From assembly GCA_017506865.1 (NCBI GenBank), contig JAFCMP010000246.1:434001-498000 (forward strand): 64,000 bases of DNA, read 5' to 3'. The DNA comes from Tribonema minus. Taxonomy: Eukaryota; Sar; Xanthophyceae; Tribonematales; Tribonemataceae. Positions 1-64,000 of the stretch are shown piece after piece. Position 1 is the first letter of the stretch; the number at the start of each line of letters is the position of its first letter. The notes beneath the pieces were generated by a model, which searched no databases, was not told the origin of the DNA, and was given only the letters and a program-made list of their open reading frames with translations. The translations under genes were made by a program, and so were the position numbers.

Positions 1-1
1 C

Positions 2-3000
2 GTGGTCATCATCGGCGCCGGTCCCGCGGGCCTCGCGGCAGCGATCAGGCTCAAGCAGCTCGGCGCTGCGGAGGGGGGATCGGATCTGAGCGTGTGCGTG
101 GTGGAGAAGGGGGCGGAGGTGGGGGCGCACATACTGTCGGGGAACGTGCTGGAGACGCGCGCGCTCGACGAGGTATACTTGAAGTTGAAGTTTTCTGTTG
201 AAGTCTGTGCGGTTTGAAGGTATCACCTCTTCGTATGCCCTGTTTGTGATCGACGAGTTGCTGTTGTGCCGTGAGTGGCCTTCAGCGCATGATAAAAATC
301 CACGCGAGCAACGGGACGGCTGTGTGCACGAAGCTGACTATGCCTGCTTTTGGAAAGTCAATTTTAATCCTCGAGTGAAACGCGGACATGTATGCATGTC
401 GGCAGCATGCCTCGGCGCATCAATGGACAGCACATGTGCGCTGCCGTGAACGTTGCCGTGAACATGAGCACCATGGCGACCTGAGACCTGTCGTTTAAAA
501 GATTATTCGGCCATTACAGGCGGCGTTGTCAAGACCGTTGCGTCACTGCTCATAGGTGAATAGGTTCTCCAGAGCATCGTGCAATGGCGCGGGAAGGGGC
601 GGTTGGATGTTAACGCGGCATGCGCGCTTCTTACCGCGTCAGTGCGTCGCGCCTTGCTGGCGCGAACTTTTTCGGTGCTGCAGCCACCCGCTCAAACATG
701 TAACAAGCGCAGTCAGTCCTGGTGCGTCTGCATTCCTGTTCACGACGCCATGCTACATTGGCCTACTACATGGCCTGGTGTGACGCGTTTGAACGGAGCC
801 TGACTGGTGAGAAAGTCACAGACGCACTGTCAGCAGCAGAGTTCGTCCGTTCAGGGCATAGCTTTTTGTTTACGGCTGTGTGTTGACAGTATTGTGGAGG
901 TGCCGTCAAGAGCTGCATGTGAGTATCATGCCGAATGCGACTGCCGCTCGAGCACGTAGTGCACGCGCCGCAGTACGCACACGTAGTACACCCAACTCCC
1001 TTCCATGTAACCGCTGATGTATACCCAACTCCCTTCCATGTAACCGCTGATGTAACTGCCGATGTAACCGCCACCGCGCAGCTGATCCCGGACTGGAAGG
1101 AGAGGGGCGCGCCCATCCACACGCCCGTCACGCACGACGTCTTCAGCATCCTCACCGCGGAGCGCTGCTTCAACCTGCCCGCGCTCGCGCTGCCCAAGGA
1201 GCTCCACAACCACGGCAACTACGTCGTGTCGCTGAGCCAGGTCACGCGCTGGATGGCGGAGCAAGCAGGTGTGCACGCATGTTCACTGATGGTATGTAGG
1301 TATGTGGATACCCTCGCACGCGGCGGCGCGGCGACGTGGCATTGCTGAGCCGTGTCACGCGCTGGATGGCGGAGCAAGCAGGTGTGCGCCATATGTGGTG
1401 TATCATACCGTGTATCATACCGTGTGTGTTTGCCGACTGAACGTACTTACGTACCCCGGCACAAAAACACTGTGTCGCTCAGCAAGGTTGCGCGCTTACG
1501 TGCTGGATGGCGCAGCAAGCAGCGTATGTATGTAGCTATGGCAATGCATACCCTTGCATACGGCAGCACGAAGCCATGGTGACGCTCAGCCAGATCACGC
1601 GCTAGATGGCGCACCATGCAGGCATGTACGTATCTCCGATGCATCAATTTTATGTGCCCATGCGATCATTGGGGTCGTGACAATAGCAACATACATCTGC
1701 CCTGCTCATTGCAGCGCCGCGTCACCATACGGAGGCGCCGAGAGTCAACGAAACCGGCCCCAGCATCGCTGCAGCAGCGCTCAAAGGCAGCACTGCCAAC
1801 GCTGTCCCTGTTCCATCCGGCACCGTCTCCGTCACATGCCACGTATTGCTGTGTCTAACCTGCACGCTATCCCCCCCCCCCACCCCCCCACCCACCCCCC
1901 CCCCCCCACCCCCCCGCGCGCGCCGCCACAGAGGAGCTCGGGGTGGAGATCTACCCCGGCTTCGCGGCGGCGGAGGTGCTGTACGACGACGCGGGCACCT
2001 CCGTCGTAGGCGTCGCCACGCGCGACGCAGGCATAGCCAAGGACGGCACGCTAAAGGAGACATTCACGCGCGGCGTGGAGCTGAGGGCGCGGCAGACGCT
2101 GCTGGCGGAGGGCGCGCGCGGCTCGTGCACGGAGGACGTAACCGCCAAGTTCAACTTGCGCGGCGGCGCGCAGCCGCAGACGTACGGCATCGGCCTCAAG
2201 GAGGTGAGCGCGCGCGCGTGCGCCGGAGCGCGGCGGGCGCTGCGGTGTGCGCCTGTCGCCGCTTGAGCCCTACGTACGCAGCTACGGCGTGCGTCTCTCA
2301 CCGCTCAAGCCCTGCGTGCGCAGCGCGTGTCAGTTGGTGCGGCACACCTTCACTGTCATGTGAAATTTACTCTGTGAATGACCGCTGTGCGTGAGCGGCA
2401 GCGCCAGCACGCAGACTTGAAGTTTTGGCATCAGAGAGCAGGGTGATGGATTGGTTTGTTGCAGCGCGCCGCCTCGTCTTCAGCCAGCGCCTTCTGGTAG
2501 CACGCACACAGTGCTAGGCATATGCACATATACTTCAGCCAACCACGTCTCGTGGTTCCACACGCCGCCATTGCCACCCACACCAAGCCTTCACCACCGT
2601 GTTCAGGTGCGCACGCGTCGCCATTCCCTCTCGCCATTGCCACCCACACCTAGCCCTCCCCCCCTCAACGCGCCTTCACGTTGTCAACGCGTCCTCCGCA
2701 GGTCTGGCAAGTCCCAGCGGAGCGATGCGAGCCCGTCCGGAGGGCTCATTTAAGTAGGATGATAAGAGTTGAAGTATAAGTTGTTGCAGTGGTCACACCA
2801 AGCCCCCTTCTTCAGTGCGCCTCCACTCTGTGACCGCGGTATTGTTCACAGGTCTGGCAAGTGCCAGCGGAACGATGTGAGCCGGGGCGCGTGCAGCACA
2901 CCCTCGGCTGGCCCCTGCAGAAGGGGCCCCTCGACAAGACGTACGGCGGGGCGTTCATCTACCACATGGCCCCGGATCTGGTGCTCGTTGGGCTCGTGGT

Positions 3001-3392
3001 GGGGCTGGACTACGCCAACCCCTACCTCAACCCCTACAAGTGAGCCCCCCCCATCTTGAACTTGAAGTTGATGACCGCTTAGAACTTGAAGACATATGCG
3101 TTCAACTATGGCAGCCCTGGCATCAAACTTGCGTAGGGGAGCAGTACGCCATAGAAATTGGAGTTGACTGTTGACGTCGCGTAGAACCATACGCCGCTGG
3201 GTTCAGGCACTTGAGGTCGCAGCTGAATGTCTGCGCCCGTTGCAAAGCGAGCTTCGGTGTGACAGCATTTGCCGCCTGGTAATTTGTTGCAGCACGACGA
3301 GCTCTGCATGCGCTCTGCCCCTTCACCACAGCTCACCCATACCTCGCCTCGTACTTCAATGCGGAACACGCGCGCGCGTATGCGCACACACA

Positions 3393-3431
<39 letters not shown>

Positions 3432-10101: not shown

Positions 10102-13100
10102 TCATGCCGCCCGGCGCTTGGGGATGTTGGCCAGGTTGCCGACGGCCTTCTTTGCTGGCGCTGCTGCAAAGTGCAGGGGAGAGAACCATATGAGTACACA
10201 GAGTGGACAGGTCAAGACACGAAACGACGATGCACCCCTCTGGAGCCTTTAAACCAATTGCTGAGCCAATAAGGGCATGTAAAGGGCGCCCAACATGGAG
10301 CAAGCGTGCAGCTCTATAGTGCCTGATCCCTGTTGCAACATTTCAGGTTCTTAAAGCGAAAGCCAAACGTCGACGTGAAACGGCAAGGGCAGGTTGGTCA
10401 CGACACATGGTGGCCGCATGCTAGGCAGCATCGGTGACGCGGGAGGGGGCTGCTGCCGGGCAGCGACCGACGCGTGAAATAGCGGCACGGCCAGGCAATG
10501 CAGCTGCGATCCGACGCGACTTCGGCTGTTCCTGCGGCTCTGATAAGAGCCGACGGGTACGATAAGCACGCCATGGCCGCTGTGCAGATAAGCACGCAAT
10601 GGCCGCTGCACAGTGCTCAGCGCTGCAGCCGCCAAGGCCTGACACGGTTGAACTTCAAAGCGGCAGCGCAGCTGCGCGCTGACAGACAGCTGGCCGCACG
10701 TACACGTGCAGCGCGACACACGGGCGCGTCATTGCATCAGCAGCGCTCAGCGCTGACAGTTGTGGTCATCGCTGGAGCAGCACACACAAGCCGGGGACCT
10801 CATTTGCGCAGCGGCCACAAGCCTTGTTTGGCAGCATCAATGTCACAGTCAAATCGAATCACCACCTATGCCATGGCTGCACGCGCCGACAGCTGCCCGC
10901 GCAAATGAACAACAGCGCAACAGCAGTTACCGTCACTGACTGCCGTAGGCACCACCGAAACGTTGATGTGAACTCAAGTTGAGCGCTGCTGCGTGCTCAC
11001 CTGCGCGTGCGGGCGCGGCGGACCTGACGGGGGCGGGCGCCGCGGCGACGACGGCTGCAGCAGCAAGTTCAAGTTGAAGAGAGCAGGGAGGGAAGCGTGA
11101 GAGTCGGCATCAGGCGCTGGTCCACAAGGCATGGATCAAGCAACAACCGAGCCTGAGGTGGACACCGCACGAGGTACGAGGCGCGCAGCGCGCACTACGC
11201 CTCGCGGCGGCCGCACAAAGCGCACACCAGGTGCATCAACAATCAGCTCTGCGCTCTGGCGCAAGACTCGCCTTCAGCTGCCTCGGAAAGCACGCCAACA
11301 CCACCTTCAACTGCAGAGCCCCGTGTCCCAGTTCATACTCAACTGCTACATCCTCAACAGCAAATAACAACTGCATTTTTGGCTGGCGTGCACTCACCCT
11401 TGCAGCCTGGGGTGGCGGCCTTCGGCGCGGCCTTCGCAGCGCCTGCAGCCTTGTTGACCATGAGCTTGACGGGCTTGAGCGCCGCACGCCAACAGCTACT
11501 TCAACTGATTCCCAGTGCAGAGTCGTCCTGAGCAGCTTCGGTGACTCGGGCGACTTGAATGAAAGCACCCCAACTGCTACTCCACAGCAAAAAACAATTG
11601 TATTTATAGCGGAAACTCACCCTTGGCGGCCTGGGTGGCGGCCTTCGGCGCGGCCTTCGCGGCGCTTGCGGCCTTGGTGACCGTGAGCTTGACGGGCTTG
11701 GGCGCCGCCTTCACGGCCGCCTGCGCCTTCGCAGGGGCAGCCTTGACCGCCGCCTCCACCTTTGCGGGGGCGGACTTGATGGCGGCGGGCGCTGCAGAGC
11801 CAAACAGCATGTTACAGGGCGCTTGTTAGCAGCTGAGTGCGGTGCAGCAGCATGGGGTGTGGGGGGTGTCGGTGCTTGAGAAAATTGGCAGCGCCCTGAG
11901 CGTGCTACTGCTATTGACGTGCTGAGTGCGGCTTTTGCGGCTTGGGGGGGGGGGGGGGGGGTTGGCGGCAGCGGGTGCTGTTCGAAATAAGGCATGCCAC
12001 AGAGGCTTATCAGCAGCCGAGTCTCCGATGGTGTGCAGCATCATGTACGTAGGCAGTCCTTCGTACGTAGGCGGAAGGGCTGGTGAGTGTTGAAGTGGAA
12101 CGTCGCGGCCTCAGGGTGATTGCTGCTTATCATTAGCTTCGATTCAGCAAGCGCAGCCGCTGTAGACCTTGAGGTGTGTCCTGCTGAGCCGTGACAGCTC
12201 TGCAGAAGAACGTTAATAGCACCACGCTCCCACTTCGATGATCATCAGTGTTTGTATTGGGTGCGGCCATCTTTCACAGCCCGCGAGGTGTGTCGTGCTG
12301 AGGCGTGGCATTATTGGCAGAAGCGCGTTAATAGTGGCTCGCTCTATACGCCACTGTCGCGCACACACCCTCAGAGAACGAGTCTATCTCATTCATGAGA
12401 AGAGTGCCTTCAGATGGCGGAGCAAGGATAGGCCAGGCACAGGTGCCAAAGCGATCTTTTGACGACAGCGGCTGCTGCGACAGCCTTCGCAGTTGTTGCA
12501 ACGGCTGCTTCGACGGCGGCGGGCGCGATGTGCTGAAGGCGGCATGAAGCAGCGGCCGTTGACTGTAAGAAGGCCTAGATGCCAGCGAACGCCAGTACAA
12601 ACAGCTACCGAGCGCCTGTGCCGCTAGGACACATGGAGCGAGGGCAAAACGTGGTCTTGCGGCAGTTACACGAGGTCCTGGCGGGTGCGGCATTGATCGG
12701 CATGTCACCGCCCGAACCTCAACAGCAACCTCAACCGTGACGCTACTGTGCCCCCTTGCGCTGCGCTAACACGCGCTCCGTCACTTGGGAAGTTGGGGGG
12801 ATTGTCTGGCCCGCCAAGATGTACGGTCTGGATGTAGCCATTAAAAACTCTAGAGACAAAAAGCTGATCAATCTGCAAGAGACGCTAGCACTGGGAGAGA
12901 GGAGGAGGGTCTCTCACTTCAAGTGAGAGGGTCTGATTGCGAATTGATTAGCTTTTTGTCCTTAGAGTTCTTGATGGCTACACCCAGACCGTACATCTTG
13001 GCGGGCTCCAACAATCCCCCCCGCCCCCGTCCACTGATGCTGCGTGTAATGCGCTATACACACAGCACGCTGCAGTCGCCTAGAACCCAGCAGCCTGGAC

Positions 13101-16100
13101 ACGCGTTCATCAGGAATCGCATTGTAGCTGCGTGTGGCTTTCGGCCTGCCGCGTGCAACGTCACCGCATACGCATCGAGGCGTCTGTGAGCAGCCTGCAG
13201 GTCCTGCGACAGCGCATCATGCTAAAAACTCATATGACCCCCCCATCTTCTGCTGCTGCACGTGATGCGCTATACGCACAGCACGCTGAAGTCGCGTAGA
13301 ACACAGCAGCCCGGGCACGCAGTCGTCGGGCACCGCATCATAGCTGCGCGTGGCTTTCGGCCTGCTGCATGCAACGTCACTGCGTACGCATCGAGGCGTC
13401 TGTGAGCAGCCTGCAGGGCCTGCGACTGCAGCGCGCATCACGCTAAAAACTCAGACAACCCCCCCATCTTCCAATGCTGCATGTGACGCGCCATACGCAC
13501 AGCACGCTGAAGGCGCCTAGAACACAGCGCGCAGCACGCTGGCACTTACCCTTGGGCGCGACGGACTTGACGGCAGCCTCCACCTTAGCGGGCGCGGCCT
13601 TAACGGCGGCAGGCGCTGTTGAGCAAACACCAAGTCACACAGGGCTTGTCAGCAACTGAGACCTTGAAAAAGAGCAAATGTCTGAAAGGTCTAGTCTAGG
13701 CTTTAGGTGAAGTATAATATATATGGAACCGCAGTGCGTTGAGCGAGCAGCAAGCCACAGGGCGTGTGAGCAGCTGAGCCTCTGAGATAGGGATTGGCAA
13801 ACGTCTGAGAGGTTCTGGGCTCAAGGTGCATCAGTGTGCAGTTAGAGTGCGTTGGCCAAAGACAAGTCACACAGGGCGTGTCAGCAGCTGAGCCTCTGGG
13901 AGAGGACCTGGCAGATGTCTGAGAGCCCGTGGGCTTGAGGTGAAGTATTGTTGGTGGAAGGCACTTGCGGCGAACCATCCCTTGCCACCTAGAGCTCTAC
14001 GATCTCTTGATTCGTTTTCATTCAGTATCTGGAATCAGAATGCGTCGGGCAAACACCAAGGCACATGGGGCTCGTCAGCAGCTGACGCTGACTCAACAGA
14101 GCGGACTTCAAGCAGTAGCGGCGATTTGACCGCATGTCATAGCGCCATGTGTGGCTTCAACATGACAGCGTCTCGCTCCGTCGCAGAGACGGCCTTGACG
14201 GCGGCAGCGGTACGCGTTGAGCATCATCGAGCAGAGGCGGGCGTCTGCCACAACTGCAATGTGCTCGGCGCAAGGGCAGTGTACCAAGCGCGTGTACCAT
14301 TGGCGCAACCAATGGGTTAGATAGGAGGAAGTGAACCTGACCGCAGTGATCGTGTGGACCATGTGCGCGCCCCTGCCCTAATCCTACCCCCCCCCCTCCT
14401 CAACCACAATTCAGTCTGACCCTATCCCCAGCGCACACGCTTGATCGTACGCAACAGACCGCAATCGCATCACTAAAGACAACGCGCTGCGCATCACGCT
14501 GGCGCTTACCCTTGCGGATTGTCGCCTTGGGGGGCGTGACAAACTTGGCGGCGGCCTCCCCCTTAACGGCCACAGCCTTGGGGGCTGTACATACATATAA
14601 ATATACATGAACATGAATGTATGTATATGTATTATCTGTAACTATACACAACCAACAACAGCATGAAAATGCATGAAACGGTGCGTGCCTCGTGCGCGCA
14701 CTCACCCTTGGGAAGTGTCGCCTTGGGCGGCGTGACAGACTTGGCGGCGGACTCCACCTTGGCGGCCACGGCCTTGGGCGCGGCGGGGGCTGCGGTGCCA
14801 AATGGCATGTCACAGGGGGCTTATTAGCAGCTGAAAGACTTGAGTGGTGCAGCATCATGAGATGGGGGAATGTCGGTGCGTGAGGTAATTGGCAACGCCC
14901 TGATCTTCAAGTTACTATCGTTACGGATGTGCTGAGCGCGGACTTGACGGCAGACTTCACCTTAGTTGCCACGGCCTCGGGGGCGGCGGGCGCTGTTCGG
15001 CAAATGGCACGCACGCCGCCAGCGCGGGCTTATCTTGTCAGCAATCCAGTCACAAAAAACATGCCCGGTGTGATGCAGCACAAAGAGGTTGGGGATTGCT
15101 GCAATGTCTGGATGACACATGGCAAGGCCTTGTTGCAAGAGGGCCTCGTTTCACTGTTCGGCAAATGGCACGACACCAAGGATGCAGTACATGGTGTCTG
15201 CTTGTTCGAAATGTCGTTGACTGTGATGACGACGGTAGTGGGGAGTGAGTTGAGAATTGAATCGGCGCTTGAGAATAATAACATTTGACACATGGCAAAG
15301 CCTCATTGCAGAAGGGGCTCGTCGGCAAACGAAGAGTCCGAGTAAAGTTGGGGTTGGGGTGAGGGTTAGGGTTAGCCTTGCGCTCAGCGCTTTCATTTCA
15401 TGAATTAGGGTCAGGGTTGCCTTGAGCTCAGCGCTTTATTTCATCAAGCACTGCGGCGTACTGAGAGTTGATGGGGGTCTGATGATGGAATAGCGATACC
15501 TGGGGCTCAAAGCTACCGCTGCATGAAGCAAACATGGCTTTCTTAATTACAATCATCGTCGAGTGATGTATTGTATGGAGGTGAAGCACTCGGTCACGGC
15601 GTTTGCGCGCAGACTCAGCTTGCGCAGCCTTGACGTCAGTCAACCCTATCTCTACAATACGACCCTCATGTCATTTCTAACCCATCCCTTGCCCTACTCC
15701 TGACCCACACAAAACCCTACTCCATCCCCTACATGTATGTGCACACCGTGCATACGACAAGGTGAAGTTCGTCAGCCACAACGCTCAGCGCCCGCGGGTA
15801 CTCACCCCTGAGGATCATTGCCTTGGGCGCCTTTGCGGGGGCAGCCTTGACCGCCGCCTCCACCTTTGCAGGGGCGGACTTGACAGCGGCCTGCACCTTA
15901 GCGGCCTGCACCTTTGCGGCGGCAGGCGCTGTGTGGCGATCGGCGCATCACAATGAGGGCTTTGTCAGCAAACTTGATTGTTTCAACTGGAGAAGGGGGC
16001 GGCAGGCGCTGTGTGGCGATCGGCGCGTCACAATGAGGGCTTGTCAGCAAGGTAACTCATGTAATCTGCATGTGGCGTCAAGCAGCCTCATAAACGTACT

Positions 16101-40646: not shown

Positions 40647-40862
40647 TCATAAGGGCGAAGCCTGTGCAATGATTGATCGCCGCGCCTGAGCGCCGGCGGC
40701 CGCTGCCTCCGCAGCGCGCACGTGCTTGACGGCTCGCACGTGGTGCACGCGCACGATGCGCCATCGCGCACGCAGCGCCCGCAGTCCCCCAGTCCCTGTC
40801 CTCTAGCGTAAGCGCACCGTCGCCGCTGCCGCTGCCGCCGCGCGGCCACCGCTGCCGCTGCC

Positions 40863-40894
<32 letters not shown>

Positions 40895-46300: not shown

Positions 46301-49300
46301 GCGCAGGCACCGACAGAAGCCCAGAAGAAAGTAGGATTTGTCATGAGGAAGCGCCTCAGCAGTCGAGAGCGCAATGCTGAGCACTGTTGGCAAGCTCAAG
46401 GTAAGGGTGAGAGGTGAGTCTCCAGCAATTGCAAGGAGTCCTGAGCATGCTTGTCCAGCGTGTCAGCGCATCGCGCGAGCGTTGATCAGCACTGTTGACA
46501 CACTTGAAGTTCGTACAAGGGCACGGCGCAGCACACCCTGCGACAGTGCCTCGAACCAGGACTAGTCAACGAGGACCGCACGCCATTTCAGACAGCAACA
46601 GAGGATGGCCAGACAAACATCGCGCTACTTGCCCATCATTTGCTTGTTGTCATGACGCACCAGCTACGATGACTCACTCGAAGCGTGACTTAGTTCCGCT
46701 CATGCTGAACGGTGCCGGCTTCCGAGCACCAGCGCAGTCGAGGACTGCAAGACGCTCGGAGCAGTGTGCCCGGGACCGGGCTAAAAGGCTGTTGGACTTT
46801 TCAGACGACGAATACTCACAACGCTGGTCATGATGGTTTGAGTTGTTTGAACCGATGGTTGTGCCACTGGGCAGAAATGGGAGACAGAGGCAGAGCTCCT
46901 TGATGCCATTGCTACTCAAAAAGGGACCAGGATGTTGGTTTTCCGGAGCAGCCAGTCCTCCAGAGCTGTGAAAAGCATAGCGGTGGCCTGCATGTGGTCT
47001 GCTCTGTCTGCGGCGGTCCACGTGGCAATTTGAGAGGCATTGCGGTTAATGACCCACATGGCAGACTCGGGGGGGGGGGGGGGGCTGGTGGCAGGTGGAC
47101 GAGGCTGTTGGGGAGGTACCTGAATGTGGATGAATTCAGCATGAATGAGCACTTTGCGCTGCACCATCGTAGACCCGTCCACTGGTAGCATATCGATCAT
47201 CTAGGCTTCTTGCGGCCTGAGCGAGAAGTCGTTGCACCAATGCGCGTCCGCTCGTGAACTGGTCTGCAGAGCATCGGGGCCTTGTCGCAACTTGGCAGCT
47301 GAGTGCGCCCTACTTGTCAGAGGACGCTCACCAATCCGTCTGCACGTCGCCGCAAGGCTGGCGCACGTGTGGCTGGCCTCAGGGCAATCTGCTAGCTCAC
47401 CCTTAGGGTTAGCCCGATGGTTTAATGTAGTGTTAGCATCAACCCTACAGTGCGTGCCATGCCCGGCGGTTCTGCTGCACCCTCCCTGCCGCCGCCGCAG
47501 CCACTGGCACTGTCAGCACCTACCTGGTGGCGCGCGACCCCCGGCCCGGCGCATGCCTCAGCGTTCACATGCCGTTACAGTCGCAGTACTGTACACTAGG
47601 AGCTGCACAGGCAGTACGCTCTCACCTGCTGACTCAGCGCTCACATGCGGGTACAGCAGTAATTCTTTACATTCGATGATAAGTTGGAGCTGTACAAGCA
47701 GTGCGCCCTCACCTGCCGACTCCGCGCGCACATGCCGTTACAGCCGCAATACTGTAGTACATCAGATCTGTACACGCAGTGCACTCTCTTTCACCTGCCG
47801 CCGCCGCGACGCCGGGCAGCAGGCTGCCAGGTACAGCCGCAATACTGTAGTACACTAGAGCTGTACGCGTAGTGCGCTCTCACCTGCCTCCGCAGCGCTC
47901 ACATGCGATTACAGCCGCAATGCTGCAGTACACTACAGCGATACACGCACCGCGCTCTTGCCTGCCGGCACTCACATGCGCTTACAGCCGCAATACTGTA
48001 GTACACTAGAGCTGTCACAGTACACGCAGTGCAATCTCTCTCACCTGCCGCCGCCGCGACGCCGGGCAGCAGGCTGCCGGCGGGCGCGGCGAGCGTGAAC
48101 GTGCGCGAGTACGTTGCCAGCCCGAGCACGATCTTGTTGGCGGGAACGCCGGCGTTAATGTAGGATGACAGTGCGGAGTCTATGTCCGCGGCCTTGGTGT
48201 TGGCGCACCAGCGCGAGAGGCAGTCCACTATGGGCGCGTTGGCGTTGGCGACCGTCGTGCCCGGGAAGCTGCCGCCGTTGAAGTCGTACCTGCGCTTAGG
48301 GTTAGGGTTACCGTTAGGGTTAGGGTCAGCCGCGAACAGGACGTGCGCGTGAGAACACCAGATGCCTCGGACGCTGAGAAAAGCGTGCACGCATGTGTCT
48401 TTTGACTTCTGCGCCAGCCGCGAACGGGACGGGCAAGGATGAACACCGATGCCTCTGACGCTGAAAAGCGTGCACGCATGCTTCTAGAAGTATGTCTTTT
48501 GATACAGGCGTTGAGCCCTGCGTGTCCAGGCGCGCACGCGCAAGGTCCCTTCCTGTCGCATGCTTCAGTAGCGCCGTATTATGTAAACAGTTCTCGAAGG
48601 ACTTAACTCCGAGGATCATTTAATTGTGATATACTTGTACAGCATGTACAAGCACGCCTGCACGACTCTTGCAAAAACCCGCCTCGACAGAGGGAGATGC
48701 GGAGTGCCCCCGCGCACCAAACCCTAACCCTAACCCTGAGACCCCCCCTCTACTAACCCCCCCCCAGGGGGCTAAAAAGTGGTAGGGAAGGCGCCCCAGG
48801 GACAAGTGTGTATATATGTGTTAGCTAGGAGGGGACACGGCTCTCATGGAAATGAATCAAAAGATCGTAGAGCTCCAGGTGACAAGGGATGGTTGGCCGC
48901 GAGTGCCTTCTACCAATGACCGTGGTCGCCGCCGTTGCAGTCATACACGGCTTTCACTTACGTCATGAGCGAGAATCAACAAAAGGTACTTGTGGATCTG
49001 CGACAGCTCGCAGTGGGCGTCGGCCGCGCTGCACTTACGTCGTGAGGTTGATAAAGTCCAGGTATTTGTGGATCTGCGCTGCACTTACGTCATGAGGTTG
49101 ATAAAGTCCAGGTACTTGTGGATCTGCGACAGCTCGTAGTGGGTGTCGGCCTGCAGCGCTGCCGTCGCGGCGGTAAGCAACAGCCCCGCGCGCTTGCACG
49201 CGGCGTACATCTCCTGCAGCAGCAGCGTGAAGTTGGTGCGCTCCGCGGGCGCTGCGCGGAGAGTGGCGCGGCGTGCGCAAGTGAATTCATTAATGTTAAT

Positions 49301-52300
49301 TCATTCGTGTGGGTGCTGCCTGTGCGATTGAGGCAATGGTGCTCGCCATGTGTGTATCGTATGCTTGCAAGCAGTGAGGTGAAAGCGCACCATACGCGGC
49401 AAGCGCTTACTAATACTAGTGTTAAGCGTTCCACAAGATTAAGGACAGCTGATGGAGGAGCGTTTGAGATCAGCGCTGTGCGGTGCGCGCGCGGCTGTGA
49501 AAGCACATGAGCCATTAGTTTTCTGCCGTACATGGCCAGAGCTTTTGAGCAGGGCAGGGCGTGCTGTGTGAGGCTACGCGGTGATACATTGCTGGTCAAA
49601 ACAGTAGCATTCTGCCAAGCGCACACGATGCTTTGCATCTGTGTGACTAATAAAGTCGCAACAAGACTTAACATTCTTGAAAGTCGCAAAAGCTGCCATG
49701 CAGGCCTTTTTTGGGCCCCCGCTGGCCTTTGATTGCGAAGATGCATCGTTGTTCTTGGTTCTGTCGTGAGTGACTGTTAGCAGGAAACATGCCTGCAAAC
49801 ATTTAGTCAGGATTGGCGCAAGCGCGGCTGTACATTTCCATGCTCCAAAGAAGCAGCCATTGTCCTTCTCGTGTCAGAAAACCGACTTTCACATTGATCA
49901 GCATTTCAACAGAGGCTTTCAAACCGCAGGCCGAGGGTCGGCATGACTTGCCATCGGTTGCATGTTGCTACCACTAAGTAGAGTGGCACACCTAAATTTC
50001 CTGATGCATACCGTACAGATTGGAAATCTACTTCAAGTATGTACTTCAAACTTCTTGAATTAAAGTGAAACTTGACCGAGAAAAGTAGGTGTTTGCATTT
50101 CAACAGCGCCGTGCCCCATACAGCCGGCCTGGTTCGAGTGCCTGTTCAGACACGTACATAGGGATATAAGACTGTCAGTGCTGTACAGCACACCCGCTAT
50201 TGATGGCGGCCTTGGGCTAAACCTAGGCCTACACGTAGCGCTACAGCAGTGCTCCCCCCCCCGCCAGTCTGCAACAGGTCTGCACGCACCATCACAGCTG
50301 CCATAGGATTAGATTTGAGGTTTTTGAATCCGAGCTGAGAGGAGCTTGACGCAGTCTGTCCGCATCAGAATGCCGCTGGCATTCCCGCCCATGCCCTAGG
50401 CAAGACTATACGGCCTGATGCACGGTCTTAGCCTCACGTGTGCCATCGTACTAGGGCGCTCTGTGCCCTGAAGTGTGAGTTTAGGGCCCGAAGCGAGGAT
50501 CTTCGCCTTACCGGTGCCATCGTGATTACGAATCAAAAGATCATAGAGCTCTAGGTGACAAGGGATGGTTGGCCGCAAGTTGCCTTCCGCCGATGACCGT
50601 GGTCGCCGCTGCTGCAGTCATTGGCCACGAGTCAAACGTGATGGGATACTGTGTGCACACAGTATCTAGGCCTAGTGGAGGTGCACTCAGGGCCTGATCC
50701 AGGGTCTTCGCGTCACCTGTGCCATCATAGTTGGGGTACTCCCAGTCCAGGTCGATGCCGTCGAGGGGGTGGGCCGCGCTGGTGGCGTAGGCGATGGCCG
50801 ACTGGATGAACGCCGCGCGATTCGCGGCAGTGCTCGCCATGGCGGGGAAAATGCGGTCGCTGGCCGTGCCCCTGCAACACTCAGCACCAGCGTTTTGTTA
50901 GGGTCAGGGTTTGATAAAAATGAATCAAAAGATCGTAGAGCTCTAGGTGACCAGGGATGGTTAGCCGCCAGTGCCTTCCACCAATTTAACTTGGTATCAG
51001 GGCCACGGCGGTGCGTACAGCTTTACGTTGGCGGAGCAGACAGCCCTGGGCGGTGGCGACATGCAAGTTCAACAGGCAAGTTCAACAATCTGCGTGTTTG
51101 TGTGAACTTGAAGTGGTGGCCAGAGGCGTCCGTTTGGTGACAAGCCCTGCACCATGGATGACACGCGGTCGTCGTTGAGTGGACGGCCACGCTCGTCTCA
51201 CCGTCGACAGACCACAATTGGCACAGGGGGCAGTCAAATAGGACTTGATATTTTCGTGGTGGGGCATGTGTCGCGCCCACTCTCAATCACTGAGACCCCC
51301 TGTTACGAAGGGAAGCAACGCATCGCCGTAGTCACGTCTGGAAGGCAGGACCGCTTAGCAATGCTTGCAGACTCAGTGCCTGCACACCGCAGCGGAACAG
51401 CAGTCGGATGGGCCCCGATGCGGCCTTGTTGATGGCGCACTCAAAACGCGCGCGCGTGGCGATTTGACGGCTGGCCTCAAGCTCGTGGGTTGTTAGGGCG
51501 TCTACACAACGCCTGCTTGCATCAGCCCTGGCCCTAGACAGCGCAACACATGAGCGCGCCAGCCGTGCCTCGAGGCCCTCCCAGTTGCAACTTAATGAGA
51601 ACGAATCAAAAGATCGTAGAGCTCTCAATGACAAGGGATGGTTAGCCGCAAGTGCCTTTCACCTATAACCATGGTCGCCGCTGCTGCGGCACTGGCCACA
51701 AGTCAAACAGTACTACCACGTCCACAGTAGTCAAAAGACTCATGCGTGCAAGCTTTTCAGCGTTCGAGGCGTATGTGTTCAGTATGGAAAGGTCTCACGT
51801 GGTCGGTTGGCCAGCTAATTAATCTGATTTAGTATATCAGCGGCGGTCGCTGGCTCAATTGAAGGCCAACCAACTTAGCCTAATTTAAATTGATTTGCTG
51901 GCTCACTTGAGGCCAACTTAACCTAATTAAATTTGATTCGCTGGCTCACTTGAAGGCCGACTTCACCTAATTTAATTTGATTCGATGGCTCACTTGAAGG
52001 CTTCGTCAGCGCGGCTGAAGCTCCACCCGCCGATGGAGACGAGCACCTTGACGCCCCTGGAGCGGTGGACCTGCAGCTGCTGCAGCAACGCGTCGTCGTT
52101 CCACTCCACGTTGACGACCTTGAAAGTGTCCGGCTCGATCTGCAAGGCGTCACGGGAGGACCGTGAAGTCGCGAGCCGCTGATGGCACTGGCAGCGGCAT
52201 TGTGACGACTCGATGTTGAAGTTCGGTACAAAGAGGGTCTTTGCGGTGGCGTATCGTCCCTTCTCTGCACTGCTTTGGGGAACTCGGACAATGTGTGTAA

Positions 52301-55300
52301 AGCAGTGGAAGGCAGTGCCACGCCCCTTATCTGCCCAATGTGGCGCTTGTCAGTGAGCAGTCAAGCCCCTAAGCCGGTGCATACAATGCCATGATTACAA
52401 CATTCCACGTGCACTCTCAAAATTGTTGGTTGCAGACACGACCAGCACACTATCGTCGCACAAAGCCGGAGCCAGTGATAGAGCCTAATTCTATGTGCTG
52501 CTACTGGTGCACGTACGTTGCGGTTGCACACAACGATGAGTGCCCAACTTGAAGTTGAAGCTACGCTGGCTGCTCCGGACACTACCCCAGCTGTTCGAAA
52601 CGCGCCTTGCGGCCATGTTCAGACGTTGGTGCATGTAACGAAGCGACGGGCCAGCACTGATGGCACACATTCCTGCAAGTGTGCTCAAAGTACCACTACT
52701 AGCAGGCGAGGTCACACACATTTTGAAAACGCAAACCATGTGCATAAGCCATGCCGTGCTCTGCGAGGGCTGCGCCTTGGGCGCTGAGGTGAAAGTTTAA
52801 GGTTCTGAGCACTTTGGGCCTGATGATGCTCAATGACATGTAGACTAAAGCTGAGAAATGCTGCAGATAGGGTTACGTGACAAAACCCAGACGCCATGCC
52901 GCAAGCTCACTCCGAGCTAGAGCGGACCCTCACCTCACAGCCTGACGTGAGCCTTTACCCGTTGGTGCACACCTATCTGATGTGAGCATGACCTTATACT
53001 GACCCACACCTCACACCTTATTAGGGTACTCAACAGTGAAGAGTTGTGAGCCGTGACACCGGCGAGTGCAACGCTCTCCAAGGCGCCATCAGCCATGCGG
53101 CAGCACCTCACTTGAACCCAAAATTGGAATCTCCAGCCTATGGGAAAATCAACCCACGCCTACACTATAGGCTGGCACCTAGCAACCACCGTAGCCTGAT
53201 CCATACCTCATGTTGAACCTGAGCACCAGCTCCGATCCTTCAAGTTCTCGCGAACCTGGATATCGCCGCCCACCATCACACCCTCGCGGAGGCATACTAT
53301 GTGATGTGCACAACAAAAAAAAAGGGTCCACGTTTGGCATGGTACTGCGCGCAGAGAGGAAAGGGGGGGGGGGGCAGATTGCGTACAGCAGTTCGATGCC
53401 CCAGCAGAAAGGGCAGCAGAAAGGGCTGTCACTGTTCCAGCAGTTTCGCCCTGTGCATCAAGCCCCCCCCTGCAGTGCCTGTCCCCGAACCCAAATCAGT
53501 GCCCCGCCTCAGCGGAGCGAGCGCAAAGCGAGGTGCTCGCCGCCGCCTCTCATCTTGGCGAAGGCGTAGTTGATGTGCGTGTCCCCAAACTCAAACCAGA
53601 GCCCCGGGGGCACCTCAGCGGAGCGAGCGCGCAGGCGGGGTGTTCGTCACCGCGCCTCTCACCTTGGCGAAGGCGTAGTTGATGTGCGTGAAGAGCGCGG
53701 GGTCGAGGTTGGATGGCGTGTATGCGTACTGCGCGCACCAGGGGGGGCGCGGGTACTCCGCCGTCACGACGCCGCGGTACTGCGCCCAGTCCTGTCGAGA
53801 GCGCAGGCAGCAGGCCGGCAGGGCAGCGTCAGCATCGGCTAGCAGCGCGCGCGGGGGGGGTGGCGGGGGGGGGGCACGATGCCCTGTCGAAAACCCCTGG
53901 CACCCTTCTTCAGAGTTGGCAAAGGGCCTCTACCCCCCCCCACGATGTTGAATACACCTGGCACCCTTCAGAGTTGGCAAACTTGAAGGGCCTCCCCCCT
54001 CCCCCCCCCGGGGGGGGCAGCCGGCCAAGCCTCCCCCGTCGCTTTGCGGGGCCGCAGCACGGAGTGCGGAGTCAGCGCGCTGCTGAGCATCAGCGCGTGA
54101 ACGCGAATGCGCCGGCGCACGTCGGCTCTGCACCTGTTGTAACCGTTACCAGCCAGTGCCCCTACACTGCAAACTTCAAGCAGCTGCAGGGCATGGTGGC
54201 TGCAGCATGCTGTTGCGGTGCCTCAAAGTGTCAAGATGACCGGGGGTGTGAGGGTCGGCGCCGCTCAGGTGATGGGCGATGGTGCACAAACTTCAAGGTG
54301 GCGAGTGCGGAACAGCAGGCGACGCAAACAGTGGTTGAGGAAGCCTGACATGGTCCAAGCCCCCAACAAAACCCTAACCGTCGGCGCAGCGCGTGCGCTT
54401 GGTGCCGAGGCATGCAGCATGATGAGCAGAGATGCGCTGCATACACTTTGCACTTTAAGGTTTGAAGTTTAGGTGACCACAAGGATTGGGGTTCGCGGTA
54501 CAATTGTCCAGGGTGCCAGACTCTGTGTGTGACTGTTGTGCGCTGCAGAGTTCGAAGCAGTGACCGTATGGCCAACAAGAGTCTGCACAGCTGTACTTTA
54601 CAAGTATGTACATATGCATTGCAATTTCAGCAAATTAGAGTCATCTTCGCCATTAAAACACATTGAGTCCGCCAAGGCGAGCCCGCCAGCACAGGGCCAT
54701 TGGCGCAATCTAGACAACCTGCAGTGCAGTGCACATACTGCGCGTTATATCTGCGTGATAACACACAAGGCAGGCCAATGACGGGCAAGCCTCACTGCCC
54801 TATATACAGCAGCAATCAGGTCAATGCATGGCACGGCATACGCATGCGTGTACGCGTGCGCATTCGCCGCAATGACACTATACTTCCGTGTGCGCACATG
54901 ACGCACTGCACAATAGAAGCATGCGTCCGCATGCATGAAGGGCGATGAAAGCCTCACCGTTGTGTACACGGACATGACCTGCGCGGCAAGAGTACACAAC
55001 AAGAGTACACAATGAGTACACAACGAGTACACAACGGACGAGCAACGAAACATGCACTTCGTGAGTGAGTGCGCGTATGGCATGGGTGAGCAACGATGTC
55101 AAGAAAAGTGACAAGGTTTGCTCACCCCAAAACTGTCTGCCTGATGCCGACCCTAATGCATCAGTAAGCATGCGAGAGGGGGGCAAGTTTCATAATGCCT
55201 GCGTCTGACGCTGTAATCTCAACTGTACTGCAAACCCACGGATAGATGCTCCTTTCATAACTTGGACATGCAGAAGCCTTCATGACACTCACGATGCATA

Positions 55301-58300
55301 GGTTGCACTTCACATGCGGAGTATATACTTTCATGGATGACAAAAGCTGACACACGACCTCATCAAGTATTACTAATCATTGAGTGCATGGTGTCCTTCA
55401 GGGCTGCGAAGCAGCACCAGTCAGCCGGCTCAGGGGGCAGAGGCGCAATGCTATCGTCACATCCCAAACTCACAAGAACCCAGCCAGTGCAAACGAGGGC
55501 GCCAGAGTACATTCACACTACAGCTGCCGGCTCACCTTGAACTCCGCGTTGCTCGGTGGCAGCGCCGGCTGCGACGGGCAGCCGCGCGGCGTGAAGAAGT
55601 TGGGGCTTGACCACAGCGTCTTCTGCCAGAACAGGAACGTCACCTTGATCTCGAAGTTGCCGTTGACGTCGCCCTGGCGCATCTGGCAGTACAGGTTGGC
55701 CTTGCAGTTGGCGGGGCTGCAGATGCCGTAGAGGCTGTTGAAGTAGTCCTTGGCCTCGTCGAAGGCCTGGACGTAGAAGTTGAGCGCGAAGCCGACCACG
55801 ATGATCAAGACTTCCGCGGCGATCACGACCCAGCCCTTGACCTGCCAGTAACACACATGCACAGGAGAGGAAGGCCGGACTCTGGTCAGCATGAGGCACG
55901 AGGCGCGAGTGAAGGTGGGATCGGGCCCAGGGCCAATGACTGCAGCAGCGGCGACCACGGCTATCGGTGGAAGGCACTTGCGGCTAATCACTCCTTGCCA
56001 CCTAGAGCTCTACGACCTTTTGGGTCGTTTTCATAAGGCCCAGAGCCAAGAAACGGTGGTGGCAACGCTAGTCCGGTACTAGAAGAGTCAGCAGCGTCAG
56101 TGATCGGGAATTTGCAGCCCTGCGCACAGCGAGCACGGACGCAGGTGTACACAGACCCTTACCGTTTCCCCTCTGTTGCAGAAGCCCCTCTGTACGCACA
56201 CCCTGCCCTGTTCTCCTCCGGTGCAGAAGGCCCCTTTGCTTTCAGGAGCTAGACTCTGCCGGTGGGGATGAGGCTATGTGACCGTTCCCCCCCCCCTGCA
56301 ATGCCTGCAAGCGCTGTGAGTCTGCACATTTCATTCACGTGGCAGGTAGAACAACGCATCTGCTCAAGTCAAGTGCCGCCTCTGAAGAGTCTGCCGGGGG
56401 TGCACCACAGGGTGTTGAGGAGGGGGAGCAATTTACTTTCAACTCTCTCAGGCGCGTACGCTGTCTCACCGGGAAGAGCTTGATGCTGATGCTCACGCAC
56501 GCGCCGACGCCAAAGAACTTGAGCGCGGCGGCCGCCTCCGCCCAGCCGAAGCACAGGCTCATGGTGAACCCCGCGTTCATGCCGACGAGGCCCGCGACCT
56601 GCTCGCTGGGGGTCGTGGTCAGCGCCGACGAGCACTGCCCCGACTGCGCGCACACTTGCATCTGCGAGTGGGTGCAGCGAGCAGCAGCTTGAAGTTGAGC
56701 GCTGTCGTCGGGACGCGCCGCGGAATGGGCGCGCGGCGGCGTTGTGTGCAAAGCCGCCTTCAAGTTGAAGTTGTGCACAACCGCCCCTGCCGCGCGCACA
56801 CTTGCATCTGCGCGCAGGCGCAGCGGGCAGCGAGCTGAGCGCTGTCATCGGCGGAATGGGCGTGCGGCGCTGTGTGCAAAGCCGCCTTCATGTTGTGCAC
56901 ACCTGCCCCTGCCGCGCTGGCGGAGCGCGCCGCAGCGTGCATATGCAGGGTGCCAGTACGCACGCCAGGGGGCGTAGGTCATACAGCGCATGGCACATTT
57001 TTTTTATGCGCACAGGTGCGCTGCACTACCGGCCTCCATTGCGCTGTTCAGAGTTCGGGGTCGCGGTCGCAAGCGCATGGCCGGGGGGGGGGAGTGCCGT
57101 ACTGACGGTGCATACATGTACTCCACGCTGCACTGTAGCAAGCTCTTCTGACTGTGCGTGCGCAAATAAACGGTAGGCTGCAATGCCTTGCAGTATGCTG
57201 TTGCTGCCTGCGGTACCCACCATAGCTTCCTTCCATCGCAGTGCCGCCCCCCATGTGCACTGGTGCAGCAGACCCCGCGCTGTGGTCTATAGTGTTGGTG
57301 TTTGAATAATCACGCGACGTTGAGCTCAAAGCATATGTGTACTACTCGTGCGGAGCTGTTGTCTAGTTGCTTGGTGTAGCACAATGTGCGCTTGCATCGA
57401 GTGCTACGCACAAGTTGCAAGCCTCCTCTCCCAGGTGGCAGGAGCATGTATGATCATCGCTTCAAGTGCCTCAAGGTTCACTGCAGCTGAATGTCCTGCC
57501 TGCACATCATACGTTTCAAGCCCGCAAGCTGAGAGCCCACTGCTGCACTGCGGACTCCATTTCACAATGGCAAGGAGCACATCTGCTGTCGTTCCGTACC
57601 TGCCAGAGACGGCAGGTCTGGTTGCGGGTTTCAGCAACAAAGGCACTCTTACCACTCGTTGTCTTTGGTCGACCTCAGGAGCTCTCAGGCTGCTGTTGAG
57701 GTAGGCTTGAGCTTTCTCACGCCGACTCTGTACCTGCCTACCCTAACCCTTAGCCTTCATCTGCCGGCTCGCTCGTCTCCCAGGCAGCTGGCCAAAGCAA
57801 ATTCCTGACCCTCACTCCAACCCTAACGGTAACTGCCGTTCCAGCAGGGCCGCGCGTACCGTCTTGTACCCGTTGACATTCGCGTACGCCACGTAGGGGA
57901 CGCACGCCGACAGGCTCAGCGACGCCGTGAAGGGGAACCCCCAGAGCAACACCGTCTTGCTGCACGAGACGGGCGTTAGGCACCCGCCCCTGCGCGCGAC
58001 GTTGCTGAGGAAGCCGTCTACGCCCGCGCCGCTGGTGAGTGCTGAGACGCCGGTCGTGCACAGGTCAGGCGGCTGCGGCTCTGCGGTGGAGGGGGGGCCT
58101 ACGTCGACGAGGGCGAGGGAGCGCTCGGACTGCCCTGCTGAGCGCTGCTGCCACGCGACGGCCACCTGCGCGGGGGGGGGGGGGGGGGGGGGGTTCAGAC
58201 TTGAAGTAGCCAAACGTCGTGATATGGTGGCACCGTTTGACGCGTGGCCAATTGCTGCAGCAGCGGTGACCACGATTACCGGTGGAAGGCATGCTATTTG

Positions 58301-62062: not shown

Positions 62063-63396
62063 CTGCACGCAGGCAGGCACGGCTGGCAGCAGCGCTCAAC
62101 GCATGGAGCGCCATTCGCGTTAGAATACACTCAAGTGCTTGGGTAACAGTGTTGGAGCGAGAGCTAGGTTCGGCGCGAGCGGCACCGTATCGCGGTTGCA
62201 GTGACGGGAAGTGTGAACCTGAGCTGAATGCAGCAGTGTGGAGCTCGGCTGCCTCGTCAGAGCTGCCGACAGGGTGTGAGTATGCCGCCACACATGTGCA
62301 CTTTGAAGTGTGTGCAGCCAGGACTCTGGGAAAAACGACACTCAGTCGCAGAAGTCAAGGGCAAGGCAAGTGACGCCTGGCAGGGTTAGGGTCAGGGTCA
62401 AGGGTTTTTCGGTGCATCAGCGGCGAAAAGCTGCTGCTGCCGCGTGCGTGACATGCCTGGCTGAGCATCACATTGGCGACGTGCAGAGCACTGTCGTCGG
62501 AGGACATAGGGAGCGACTGCGATAAGCAAATACTTATCAGGTTGGGATAGGGCAGACAAGCTGTAGAATGTGGAAGCCCCCACGCACACCACTTCATGAG
62601 TATCACACTGTGACGCCAGGGAGTTGTGCCTCCTGCTTTCCTTGGGCATCGTCGGAGACAAAAGCATCAGGCAATACAATACCGGTAACCATGTACGTGA
62701 AGTAGACGCATTCTGCAGCGTGTCGCGGCGCCAGTGCAGCGTGTCGCGGCGCCAGTGCGGTGCGTTCCGCCTCACACAGTGATGTGCATTTGCCCAGTCC
62801 GAACTCACCCTGACTCTCCCCCTACCCAGGCCGCAGCGCGCTTGACTTCGCCATAGCCCCCATTGCCGACTCCACCAGCACGTGCAATCCCAGTTGCAGG
62901 ACGGACGCATCGCGATGCGCGACTGCATACGGCGCCGCAGCGCTGAGCACAAACGCACGCAACCTGACGCTACCGCTAACCCTAAATCACCTCCGCGCTG
63001 CACCACGAGCGACTTGATCGAGCAGCACGCGCCTAGGTGCCTCGACGAGATCCGCTTGCCGCCGCGCCGCACGGCTCCATCAGCACCCGCGTGGTCAGCG
63101 GTATCACGGCGACGCATGACGTGTCGAGGGCGGTTCAGCGCACGGCCTACTGAACTCATGAGACCTTTCCATACTGAACACCCATGCCCTCGAATGCTAA
63201 AGAGCTTGCACGCATAAGTCCTTTTAGTCACTGTGGATACTGATGCCGCTGTTTGACCCGTGGCCGATGACTGCAACAGTGGCGACCACAGTCATCGGCG
63301 GAAGGCACTTGCGGCTAGCTACTCCTTGTCACCTAGAGCTCTACGATCTTTTGATTCGTTTCCATTCGACCTGAGCTGAGCACTGCGCAGACTCAC
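62063..63396. other. Unresolved region upstream of the LysM exon
   Basis: Exons linking the six-Cys exon (ends phase 1) to the LysM exon (starts phase 0) would have to lie here if they belong to one gene. Open minus-strand stretches with possible splice sites exist at about 62,826-62,950 and 63,010-63,150, but three frames compete and none shows a known domain. A family A repeat occupies 63,252-63,366. Confidence 0.4.
63252..63366 (+). repeat. Dispersed repeat family A, copy 8
   Basis: Forward orientation, full length and closest to the majority sequence: tttgacccgtggccgatgac, tcatcggcggaaggcacttg, cacctagagctctacgatct, tttgattcgtttccattcg. Confidence 0.92.
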
Positions 63397-63630
63397 TTGA
63401 CGAGCACGTGATGCTTCGGTAGCACTTCTGCGCGGGCGGGCACTCCCCGTCCACCCCGCTCGGGCACAGGCGCCCGCAGGTGTCGGCGGCGTCGGCGCTC
63501 GTCGCGCCGCAGCGGTTCGCGCCGGCGGCGGCGGTGGGCTTCGGCGTGGGCTTGCGCGTGGGCTTCTGCGTCGGACGGCGTGTTGGCTGCCTGGTGCTAG
63601 GTTTCGCAGTGGGGGAGGGGGATGGCGGCG
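63397..63630 (-). CDS. Exon with Pro/Thr/Lys linker and six-Cys module (gene partial)
   Basis: The acceptor ggccgcag precedes an exon reading PPSPSPTAKPSTRQPTRRPT and further KPT repeats, an O-glycosylation-type linker. Then comes NRCGATSADAADTCGRLCPS and on to CYRSITC, with the same six-Cys spacing as the C-terminal module of the chitinase at 43.3-43.5 kb. It enters in phase 1 and leaves in phase 1 at tcaa|gtgagt. The exon may be the N-terminal part of the LysM gene, or the end of another secreted protein that starts right of the window. Such modules are common in secreted algal and stramenopile glycan-active proteins, probably as carbohydrate-binding units; that function is inferred. Confidence 0.6.
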
Positions 63631-64000
63631 CTGCGGCCCATGCAAGGACGACAGAGGTGAGGTCGCACTTGTGAGCGCTGCGATTTGGGAGCAGTGTAGT
63701 TTTGGCCACTGAGGTGTGGACCTTCCCAAACCTGAAGCGCTGCTTCGAATGTGGGAAGTGCCACAAGTTGAAGAGTGTTGCTGGTGCTGTTGTGTTTATT
63801 TGAAGCATCAACTTGCGAAGTACATAACTGGTCTGTTGGGCACGAAACAAATTCCTTTTCCAGTGCCTTTCATGACTACACCATGAATTGCGCACCGTCT
63901 TTGATGGGCAGGGCAGCGGTTACTGTAGTAGGTGTGTAGATTGGGGTTCTTTGGTTCCTGAGGCCGCTTGCAAGACGTAACAGCACATGAATTGGAACTG
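63631..64000. other. Right window edge
   Basis: About 370 bp without a supported feature. On the minus strand it is the intron or 5' flank leading into the six-Cys exon. Confidence 0.5.

Follow-up and report, generated by a model that had tools for sequence, protein, structure and literature searches.

Decaying tandem copies of neighbouring exon ends in introns of the alga Tribonema minus

Many introns of Tribonema minus carry decaying copies of the end of the neighbouring exon. In a sample of 264 kb from three contigs, with cleaned gene models, a match to the terminal exonic 40-mer was found in the adjoining intron for 46 of the 164 donors and 44 of the 164 acceptors, while the same 40-mers matched introns elsewhere in 2/777 and 7/777 cases respectively. 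The pattern is real and no special splice-site machinery is needed for it; the process, small local tandem duplication, is already known and it is the prevalence that is striking. At this frequency the pattern was not found reported in the literature searched, which comprised titles and abstract openings and covered few subscription journals. The preliminary description of the window (64,000 nt of contig JAFCMP010000246.1) had reported such echoes on donor and acceptor sides, both of which are indeed affected, and had proposed a comparison with introns of other genes; over the 264 kb this comparison put own-intron matches far above those elsewhere. We think it probable that small tandem duplications are frequent and roughly even in gene-proximal non-coding DNA, and that copies spanning an exon edge are tolerated and decay neutrally.

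Echoes in the sample and in the window

Gene models were ab initio predictions of a self-trained HMM and are imperfect. Small exon calls resembling the neighbouring exon, 26 in number and some of them perhaps true exons, were reverted to intron before the main counts. Echoes at one end or the other are present in 75 of 165 introns of the sample and at 27 of the 96 boundaries tested in the window, where the first annotation had given 40 echo calls at 29 boundaries. Reverse-complement matches of exon ends, counted before this cleaning, were found at 2/169 donors and 2/169 acceptors. The same orientation is seen in local repeats generally: those 20-1500 bp apart (score at least 24) are 298 direct and 7 inverted in the 264 kb, and repeats at least 5 kb apart have no direct bias (197 direct vs 230 inverted). 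Near direct repeats take up 19.4% of intron bases and near inverted repeats 0.3%, so that the proposed main mode of intron growth stands only in the sense of a large contributor.

The features of the window are as follows.

1082..1268, + strand: ETF-QO exon, donor end with three echoes in the following intron (HMM model; protein continuous without the echoes against PDB 2gmh)
1334..1381, + strand: echo 1 of the donor at 1269, 88% over 48
1453..1522, + strand: echo 2 of the donor at 1269, 71% over 70
1560..1621, + strand: echo 3 of the donor at 1269, 76% over 62
2645..2733, + strand: echo of the acceptor of the ETF-QO exon starting at 2852; pairs with 2794-2883, 75%
11398..11457, - strand: echo of the donor at 11620, 89% over 61
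14941..14990, - strand: echo of the acceptor at 14790, 84% over 50; Lys/Ala-rich gene with mutually similar exons
17698..18319, - strand: array of ~110-bp units with exon-end copies; TRF 3.5 copies over 17908-18313
23440..24204, + strand: array of 114-bp units, TRF 5.8 copies over 23505-24170; begins in the DEAD-box helicase exon ending at 23477
25417..25447, + strand: echo of the acceptor at 25662/25663, 97% over 31
25862..25916, + strand: echo of the donor at 25803, 95% over 55
26519..26569, + strand: echo of the acceptor at 26643, 73% over 52
27126..27169, + strand: echo of the acceptor at 27287, 93% over 44
28386..28408, + strand: echo of the acceptor at 28494, 96% over 23
34260..34300, - strand: older echo of the donor at 34423/34424, 80% over 49
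34283..34472, - strand: near-exact tandem duplication across the donor at 34423/34424, 2.2 copies of an 86-bp unit
38215..38312, - strand: near-exact 49-bp duplication, 2.0 copies; acceptor at 38165 echoed twice in it, 23 nt each
39086..39111, - strand: echo of the acceptor at 38990, 85% over 26
44005..44134, - strand: two echoes of the donor at 44200 (44005-44042, 87%; 44098-44134, 95%)
47486..47828, - strand: echoes of the donor at 48044 in a duplication array (47486-47537, 72%; 47795-47828, 100% over 34)
48962..49087, - strand: two echoes of the donor at 49088, 82% and 88%; near-exact 50-bp unit 49026-49128
50412..50521, - strand: two echoes of the donor at 50686, 82% and 79%
51847..52001, - strand: 44-bp tandem array, 3.5 copies, reaching ~8 nt into exon 51994-52139
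53554..53581, - strand: echo of the donor at 53662, 100% over 28
56876..56917, - strand: echo of the acceptor at 56808, 83% over 48

Weaker echo calls were omitted from this list, examples being 12466-12525, 14160-14207, 27573-27635, 32465-32510 and 40678-40719. In ETF-QO two called boundaries needed correction; for one the change was made solely in the protein query, which was joined by eye. Fifteen of the eighteen places singled out in the preliminary description carry an echo call. The one at 2.7 kb also stands when 2852 is taken as the corrected start of the ETF-QO exon, and that at 51.9 kb is a tandem array which takes in only the few exon nucleotides given above. At 16.0 kb no intron echo was found, and the repeats there join exons of the Lys/Ala-rich repetitive gene. 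Arrays of copies are present at 17.7-18.2 kb and 23.5-24.2 kb; the boundaries called in the former, and partly in the latter, belonged to echoes mistaken for exons by the HMM, including two copies in 17698..18319, and were later dropped.

A PsaD match, together with a light-harvesting fragment whose nearest chains bear the name fucoxanthin chlorophyll a/c-binding protein, suggests that the alga has a plastid of red origin. For a second light-harvesting query the nearest chains were those named LHCI in 9vfj, followed by ACPI. The RuBisCO small subunit was searched for and not found.

Structure of the duplicated unit

The better-preserved echoes are head-to-tail tandem duplications spanning the splice site; the unit takes in roughly 20-90 nt of exon together with the splice site and the intron as far as the copy. 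Unit length in well-preserved echoes is 92-207 bp (10-90% range). Taking all 90 positive boundaries, the exon part measures 27-113 nt (10-90%); where identity is at least 88% (46 boundaries) it measures 23-89 nt. For 66 echoes of at least 88% identity the distance from boundary to echo is filled by intron homology to a median ratio of 0.94 (quartiles 0.69-0.99; lenient gap costs, with 3 of the 66 alignments missing the echo). With stricter gap costs a flank score of at least 18 was reached by 76/137 echoes and by 0/645 and 0/137 controls; 50 of 62 echoes with identity of at least 88% reached it, and in the oldest class, probably also tandem in origin, just 10 of 42 did. Local tandem duplication, as suggested in the preliminary description, is thus borne out by both the filled gap and the flank matches. 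Displaced, non-tandem capture of exon pieces had been favoured at first, since many high-identity matches spanned the exon part alone, and was rejected when gap-tolerant alignment found the intron part in most well-preserved echoes.

Near-exact duplications (n = 18) have units of 15 to 183 bp, and purely intronic duplications are also common. At 13 of the 18 the extra junction homology is -2 to 6 bp; the other five (13-102 bp) may exceed two copies. As extra homology does not exceed 6 bp at most near-exact duplications, the duplications may have arisen when nearby breaks underwent error-prone end joining or fill-in repair.

Neutral decay of the copies

Differences between echo and exon at codon positions 1, 2 and 3 amount to 228/2050, 231/2048 and 331/2038, i.e. 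positions 1 and 2 are equally free and position 3 changes only 1.5 times more, and of 120 gaps 111 disrupt the reading frame. The statement that the copies are not simply alternative exons is therefore upheld. Copied splice dinucleotides match at 64/78 positions for GT (0.82) and 89/98 for AG (0.91), compared to 0.89 (donor side) and 0.92 (acceptor side) for copied exon and 0.69 and 0.78 for copied intron. Since the copies decay neutrally, the echoes are not exons, nor are they decoys maintained by selection. Dropping the flank requirement, copies reaching the boundary keep GT in 28/50 and AG in 31/41, and GT at donors may be lost faster than neutral.

Intron diverges faster than exon inside the same HSP, at 0.177 for intron and 0.085 for exon in the 78-86% identity class. 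Over all 73 HSPs, several of which come from the same arrays, the values are 0.221 and 0.151, and in the six youngest 0.111 and 0.032, a 3.5 times difference, which exceeds two-fold and counts against the reading preferred below. In tandem paralogs with exons 85% identical, five homologous boundary pairs were compared; the echo was in one paralog in three pairs, in neither in two and in both in none. The 86-bp duplication of donor 34423/34424 was not found at the homologous donor 38848 of the tandem paralog, nor the 49-bp duplication of acceptor 38165 at the homologous acceptor 33189.

Three other readings can be weighed on these data. That selection maintains the echoes as splice-site decoys or as regulators of splicing, as the preliminary description had offered as a second option, appears very improbable: GT is retained in 28/39 and AG in 40/49 aligned copies, but the copied dinucleotides decay at much the same pace as copied exon and not more slowly, frame-breaking gaps are frequent and none of the three echoes compared between paralogs is common to both. 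Still less probable is that they are alternative, mutually exclusive or missed true exons. The HMM did call the 26 look-alikes exons and some exon duplications may be real, e.g. in the Lys/Ala-rich gene, yet the codon position and gap data run against it and ETF-QO (in the query joined by eye) matches its solved homologue with no echo residues in the alignment. Assembly artefacts are hardly credible, as errors should yield near-identical copies, and 62 of the 118 echoes that end at most 3 nt from the boundary have under 90% identity to the exon, with neutral substitution patterns.

Placement of duplications

Intron 40-mers with a local copy in either direction occur at 0.17-0.19 per 40-mer from 20 to 500 nt from the boundary, with no peak at the boundary. 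The observed boundary to intron ratio is 2.46 (bootstrap 95% 2.01-3.04). Uniform placement and neutral decay predict most of this boundary excess: simulated in real sequences they gave ratios of 1.87 and 1.89, with variants at 1.59-2.10, the predicted ratio reaching 2.1 if introns take more indels. Most simulated values lie below the observed ratio, a value of 1.88 or less is reached in 0.45% of bootstraps, and a residual of ~1.2-1.5-fold is left; cruder simulations on random sequence gave only 1.3-1.7 and would enlarge it. At 40-80 nt from the boundary exon 40-mers gave 0.82 against 1.18-1.49 simulated, and at 80-120 nt 0.20 against 0.57-0.90, so that most simulations expect more long exon parts than are observed; with unit lengths drawn from near-exact duplications the simulation gives 0.64 and 0.32. 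A sharp ceiling of ~60 nt on exon parts, which had been read as anchoring, arose at least in part because echo copies had been called exons.

Placement is not uniform over the genome. Duplication is rare between genes, and more than 500 nt from exons it is ~3 times rarer (60/1564 vs 461/3904); dispersed-repeat coverage within the sample, 2.5% proximal vs 2.8% deep, does not explain the exon-proximal density.

It is unlikely, although less so than the readings discussed above, that exon edges are true duplication hot spots (through chromatin, R-loops, or splicing- or transcription-coupled breaks) beyond the longer visibility of copies there. The residual over the neutral simulation, the denser duplication within 500 nt of exons and the short exon parts of units speak for it; against it are the flat profile in the first 500 nt of intron, the simulated ratio attainable with more intron indels, and the near-exact duplications, of which 5/18 straddle an exon edge by at least 8 nt, too few to show an excess. 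The anchoring at splice sites proposed earlier is thus weakly supported at most. If edges were hot spots, a breakage process would seed introns with copies of the splice boundary and make them grow near exons, and confirmation of the edge residual would suggest that the duplication process is tied to gene structure.

Under the reading we prefer, of frequent duplication and neutral decay, a unit starting in the exon and ending in the next intron, or the reverse, would place its copy within the intron, and as the copy falls there the exon and one splice site would be left intact. Such a duplication would be tolerated and its copy would then drift neutrally, with splicing presumably keeping to the original site and repeated rounds producing the arrays. 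The original exon being fixed by selection, exon-intron pairs would diverge about half as fast as intron-intron pairs, the exon copy would be recognisable about twice as long, and exon edges would thereby look like the seed.

This is a genome with about a fifth of the sampled intron sequence in local direct repeats, in which exons, as fixed references, keep a long fossil record of duplication. Such a record allows duplication rate, unit length and neutral intron decay to be measured without a sister genome. The small exons called by the self-trained gene finder are also a warning for annotation.

Comparison with known systems

Introner elements (as described in PMC9860276) likewise consist of repeated sequence inside introns; in the alga there is no family common to genes. 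Introner elements were rejected since exon-end copies match their own introns and hardly others, and the units extend across the exon boundary to an end within the intron. Intron gain by tandem duplication is similar in that a duplication across exon or intron/exon sequence alters intron content, but it makes a new intron, while in the alga existing introns lengthen. New introns arising via a duplicated exonic proto-splice site were rejected: the abutting-copy signature, i.e. an upstream exon-end copy adjoining the acceptor or a downstream exon-start copy adjoining the donor, was found in 1/210 introns (score at least 14).

Small tandem duplications at breaks, as presented in PMC8355091, share with those described here the tandem arrangement. 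The organism here is an alga, in which most near-exact junctions have little extra homology and break repair is the putative mechanism. Repair-mediated duplications of vertebrates are, according to PMC2671141, short, local, up to 619 bp and ascribed to break repair, and copies in the alga are short and local too. Table 2 of that paper gives four donors of partial exon/intron and two of intron/full exon/intron type, a handful among 824. Unlike these vertebrate cases, in the alga about a quarter of the tested splice boundaries are involved, and the better-preserved copies lie head-to-tail.

Sample and gene models

The window, bases 434001-498000 of contig C246, was analysed together with a further 200 kb from an assembly of 554 contigs totalling 158 Mb, namely 50 kb each of contigs C1 and C522 and 100 kb surrounding the window. 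Genes were predicted with a hidden-Markov gene finder trained on the sampled sequence itself, with donors GT or rarely GC and acceptors AG being imposed, and once tiny or weak exons had been discarded the output held 216 introns with a median length of 633 bp. The main limits of the analysis are that the gene models are ab initio and that they come from one genome. Neighbouring genes were sometimes fused, as ETF-QO with TBP and several on the minus strand. In ETF-QO one exon end and the next exon start, 2852, were corrected by eye, only the latter entering the statistics, and the resulting query aligns contiguously with PDB 2gmh. Other models are backed by TBP, DEAD-box helicase, HPPK-DHPS, LysM and GH18 domains, the LysM and GH18 domains being predicted, in an alga, at 44200-56000 on the minus strand. 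The plastid of this alga is probably of the red-derived type. Twenty-six small exon calls resembling a copy of the neighbouring exon were reset to intron in a revised annotation.

Copies of exon ends in introns

Diverged copies of exon ends within the adjoining intron, here called echoes, are frequent. When exon-end 40-mers of the first annotation were compared with introns, the adjoining intron held a match at 46/169 donors and 38/169 acceptors, as compared to 1/169 each in other introns, 2/169 each for the reverse complement, and 7/122 and 3/119 for the exon interior (60-100 nt in). After revision the figures were 46/164 donors and 44/164 acceptors, versus 2/777 and 7/777 in introns elsewhere and 7/121 and 7/122 in the exon interior, which bears out the preliminary description of exon ends copied in their own introns. 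Echo-positive boundaries numbered 41/202, 33/74 and 16/52 in the three contigs and 27/96 in the window; 75 of 165 introns had an echo at one or both ends.

Of eighteen places listed in that description, fifteen were recovered by direct echo call, including 17.7-18.2 and 23.5-24.2 kb, where the boundaries involved were later judged to be echo copies themselves. At 2.7 kb an echo is present once the exon start is corrected, and at 51.9 kb there is an array which takes in only about 8 exon nt. The place at 16.0 kb yielded no echo; the repeats there link exons of a Lys/Ala-rich gene. The predicted exons of this gene (11700-17500) are alike, with AKVEAAVK-type repeats, and probably represent a true exon duplication alongside the intron echoes.

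Position relative to splice sites

In the 264-kb sample near repeats were 298 direct versus 7 inverted, while far repeats had no direct excess (197 versus 230). Near direct repeats cover 33,916 of 175,133 intron, 11,852 of 56,386 exon and 2,048 of 32,481 intergenic bases, near inverted ones 456, 475 and 80. Within 500 nt of exons, local tandem duplications occur at about three times the density seen deeper in introns, and they are rare in intergenic sequence; this difference is not explained by repeats scattered through the sample.

The proposal that duplication is anchored at splice sites finds at most weak support. From 20 to 500 nt from the boundary the share of intron 40-mers with a local copy in either direction is flat (0.172, 0.185, 0.169, 0.168), falling to 0.068 beyond 500 nt and 0.051 between genes. 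In one direction, the match rate of boundary 40-mers is 2.46 times that of proximal intron 40-mers (bootstrap 2.01-3.04). When duplications were simulated at uniform density in the real exon sequences and in block-shuffled introns, decaying according to the measured values, the expected ratios were 1.87 and 1.89 on the two sides; varying age, unit length and indel rate gave 1.59-2.10, and cruder simulations on random sequence gave 1.3-1.7. Most of the boundary excess therefore arises because a copy stays recognisable for longer when its partner is a conserved exon, and the remaining excess, about 1.2-1.5-fold, could come from errors in the model or from a genuine hot spot. The exon interior was matched less than in most variants (0.82 versus 0.64-1.49 at 40-80 nt, 0.20 versus 0.32-0.86 at 80-120 nt). 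Possible reasons for this shortage are that longer exon copies are selected against, that the true units are shorter, or that some annotation errors remain.

Decay and structure of the copies

In the first annotation 142 echoes differed from the exon at 228/2050 first, 231/2048 second and 331/2038 third codon positions, and 111 of 120 gaps broke the frame; the codon pattern is that of a freely drifting copy against an exon drifting mainly at synonymous sites. In 73 aligned pairs holding both parts (arrays not thinned) divergence was 0.151 in exon and 0.221 in intron; the six youngest pairs gave 0.032 and 0.111. The pairs of 78-86% identity gave 0.085 and 0.177, near the factor of two to be expected when drift affects both copies of the intron part and only one of the exon part. 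Gaps were about three times commoner in the intron part, five times in the 78-86% class.

Selection of the copies as splice-site decoys, the other suggestion of the preliminary description, is not supported by the copied dinucleotides. The match is 64/78 positions for GT and 89/98 for AG, beside 0.89 and 0.92 for the copied exon and 0.69 and 0.78 for the copied intron; with no flank requirement, boundary-reaching copies kept GT in 28/50 donor and AG in 31/41 acceptor cases. The splice sites are thus not kept, and loss of GT at donors may run slightly ahead of the neutral rate.

Transplantation of exon pieces alone, an impression first given by the many high-identity matches ending near the splice site, was rejected, as gap-tolerant alignment finds the intron part too. 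For 66 echoes with at least 88% identity intron homology spans the boundary-to-echo distance (median ratio 0.94, with lenient gap costs and the echo missed in 3/66 alignments). Under stricter costs, flanking sequence beyond the echo aligns to the start or end of the intron (score at least 18) in 76/137 echoes, versus 0/645 other introns and 0/137 reverse complements. For the oldest class (below 80% exon identity) we only infer the tandem structure, because the flank match is kept in just 10/42. At 46 boundaries with identity of at least 88%, units measure 92-207 bp, with 23-89 nt of exon (10-90% ranges). Eighteen near-exact duplications have units of 15 to 183 bp, with extra homology of -2 to 6 bp in 13, and 5 straddle an exon edge with at least 8 nt of exon.

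Tandem paralogs

Two tandem paralogs, both fused with neighbouring genes by the gene finder and with no Pfam match for the one fragment tried, have matching exons (e.g. 239 and 141 bp) that are 85% identical.

Window 32598-35541, first paralog
Window 36886-40250, second paralog

Intron 33189-34423 has a donor echo (score 47) that is absent at 38848 (score 9), and the acceptor echoes at 38165 (score 21) and 38990 (score 18) are absent at 33189 and 34565 (score 9 each). Intron 32696-32949 and its counterpart 36985-37925 have no echo at either boundary. Thus an echo is present in one member only for three of the five boundary pairs, and in both members for none.

Other repeats

Predicted introns of the window hold copies of a dispersed element, about 104 bp long and present in both orientations.

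13953-14021
48854-48944
50530-50621
50911-50985
51595-51697
55931-56034
58246-58345
63257-63365

A genome search gave 1094 first-look candidates, and the 41 matches listed have 88-100% identity and lie on many contigs; the element is a repeat of high copy number, SINE- or MITE-like, and separate from the echoes. A predicted intron at 13034-13528 holds 2.3 copies of a 216-bp unit, and a short interstitial TTAGGG run (7.7 copies) lies at 16843-16885. On contig C99 an AT-rich stretch (L025 1501-1695) encodes a PsaD-like fragment, has stop codons close by and may be DNA of plastid origin.

Discussion

Small tandem duplications arise often in gene-proximal DNA, and the echoes are their visible part; such duplication is one route by which introns lengthen. 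Duplications straddling a splice site are tolerated because the exon remains whole and the copy is presumably removed by splicing. In literature searched by title and abstract no report of a comparable prevalence of exon-end copies was found; the process and single boundary-spanning cases are already described (PMC2671141, PMC8355091, PMC4974935, PMC2891723).
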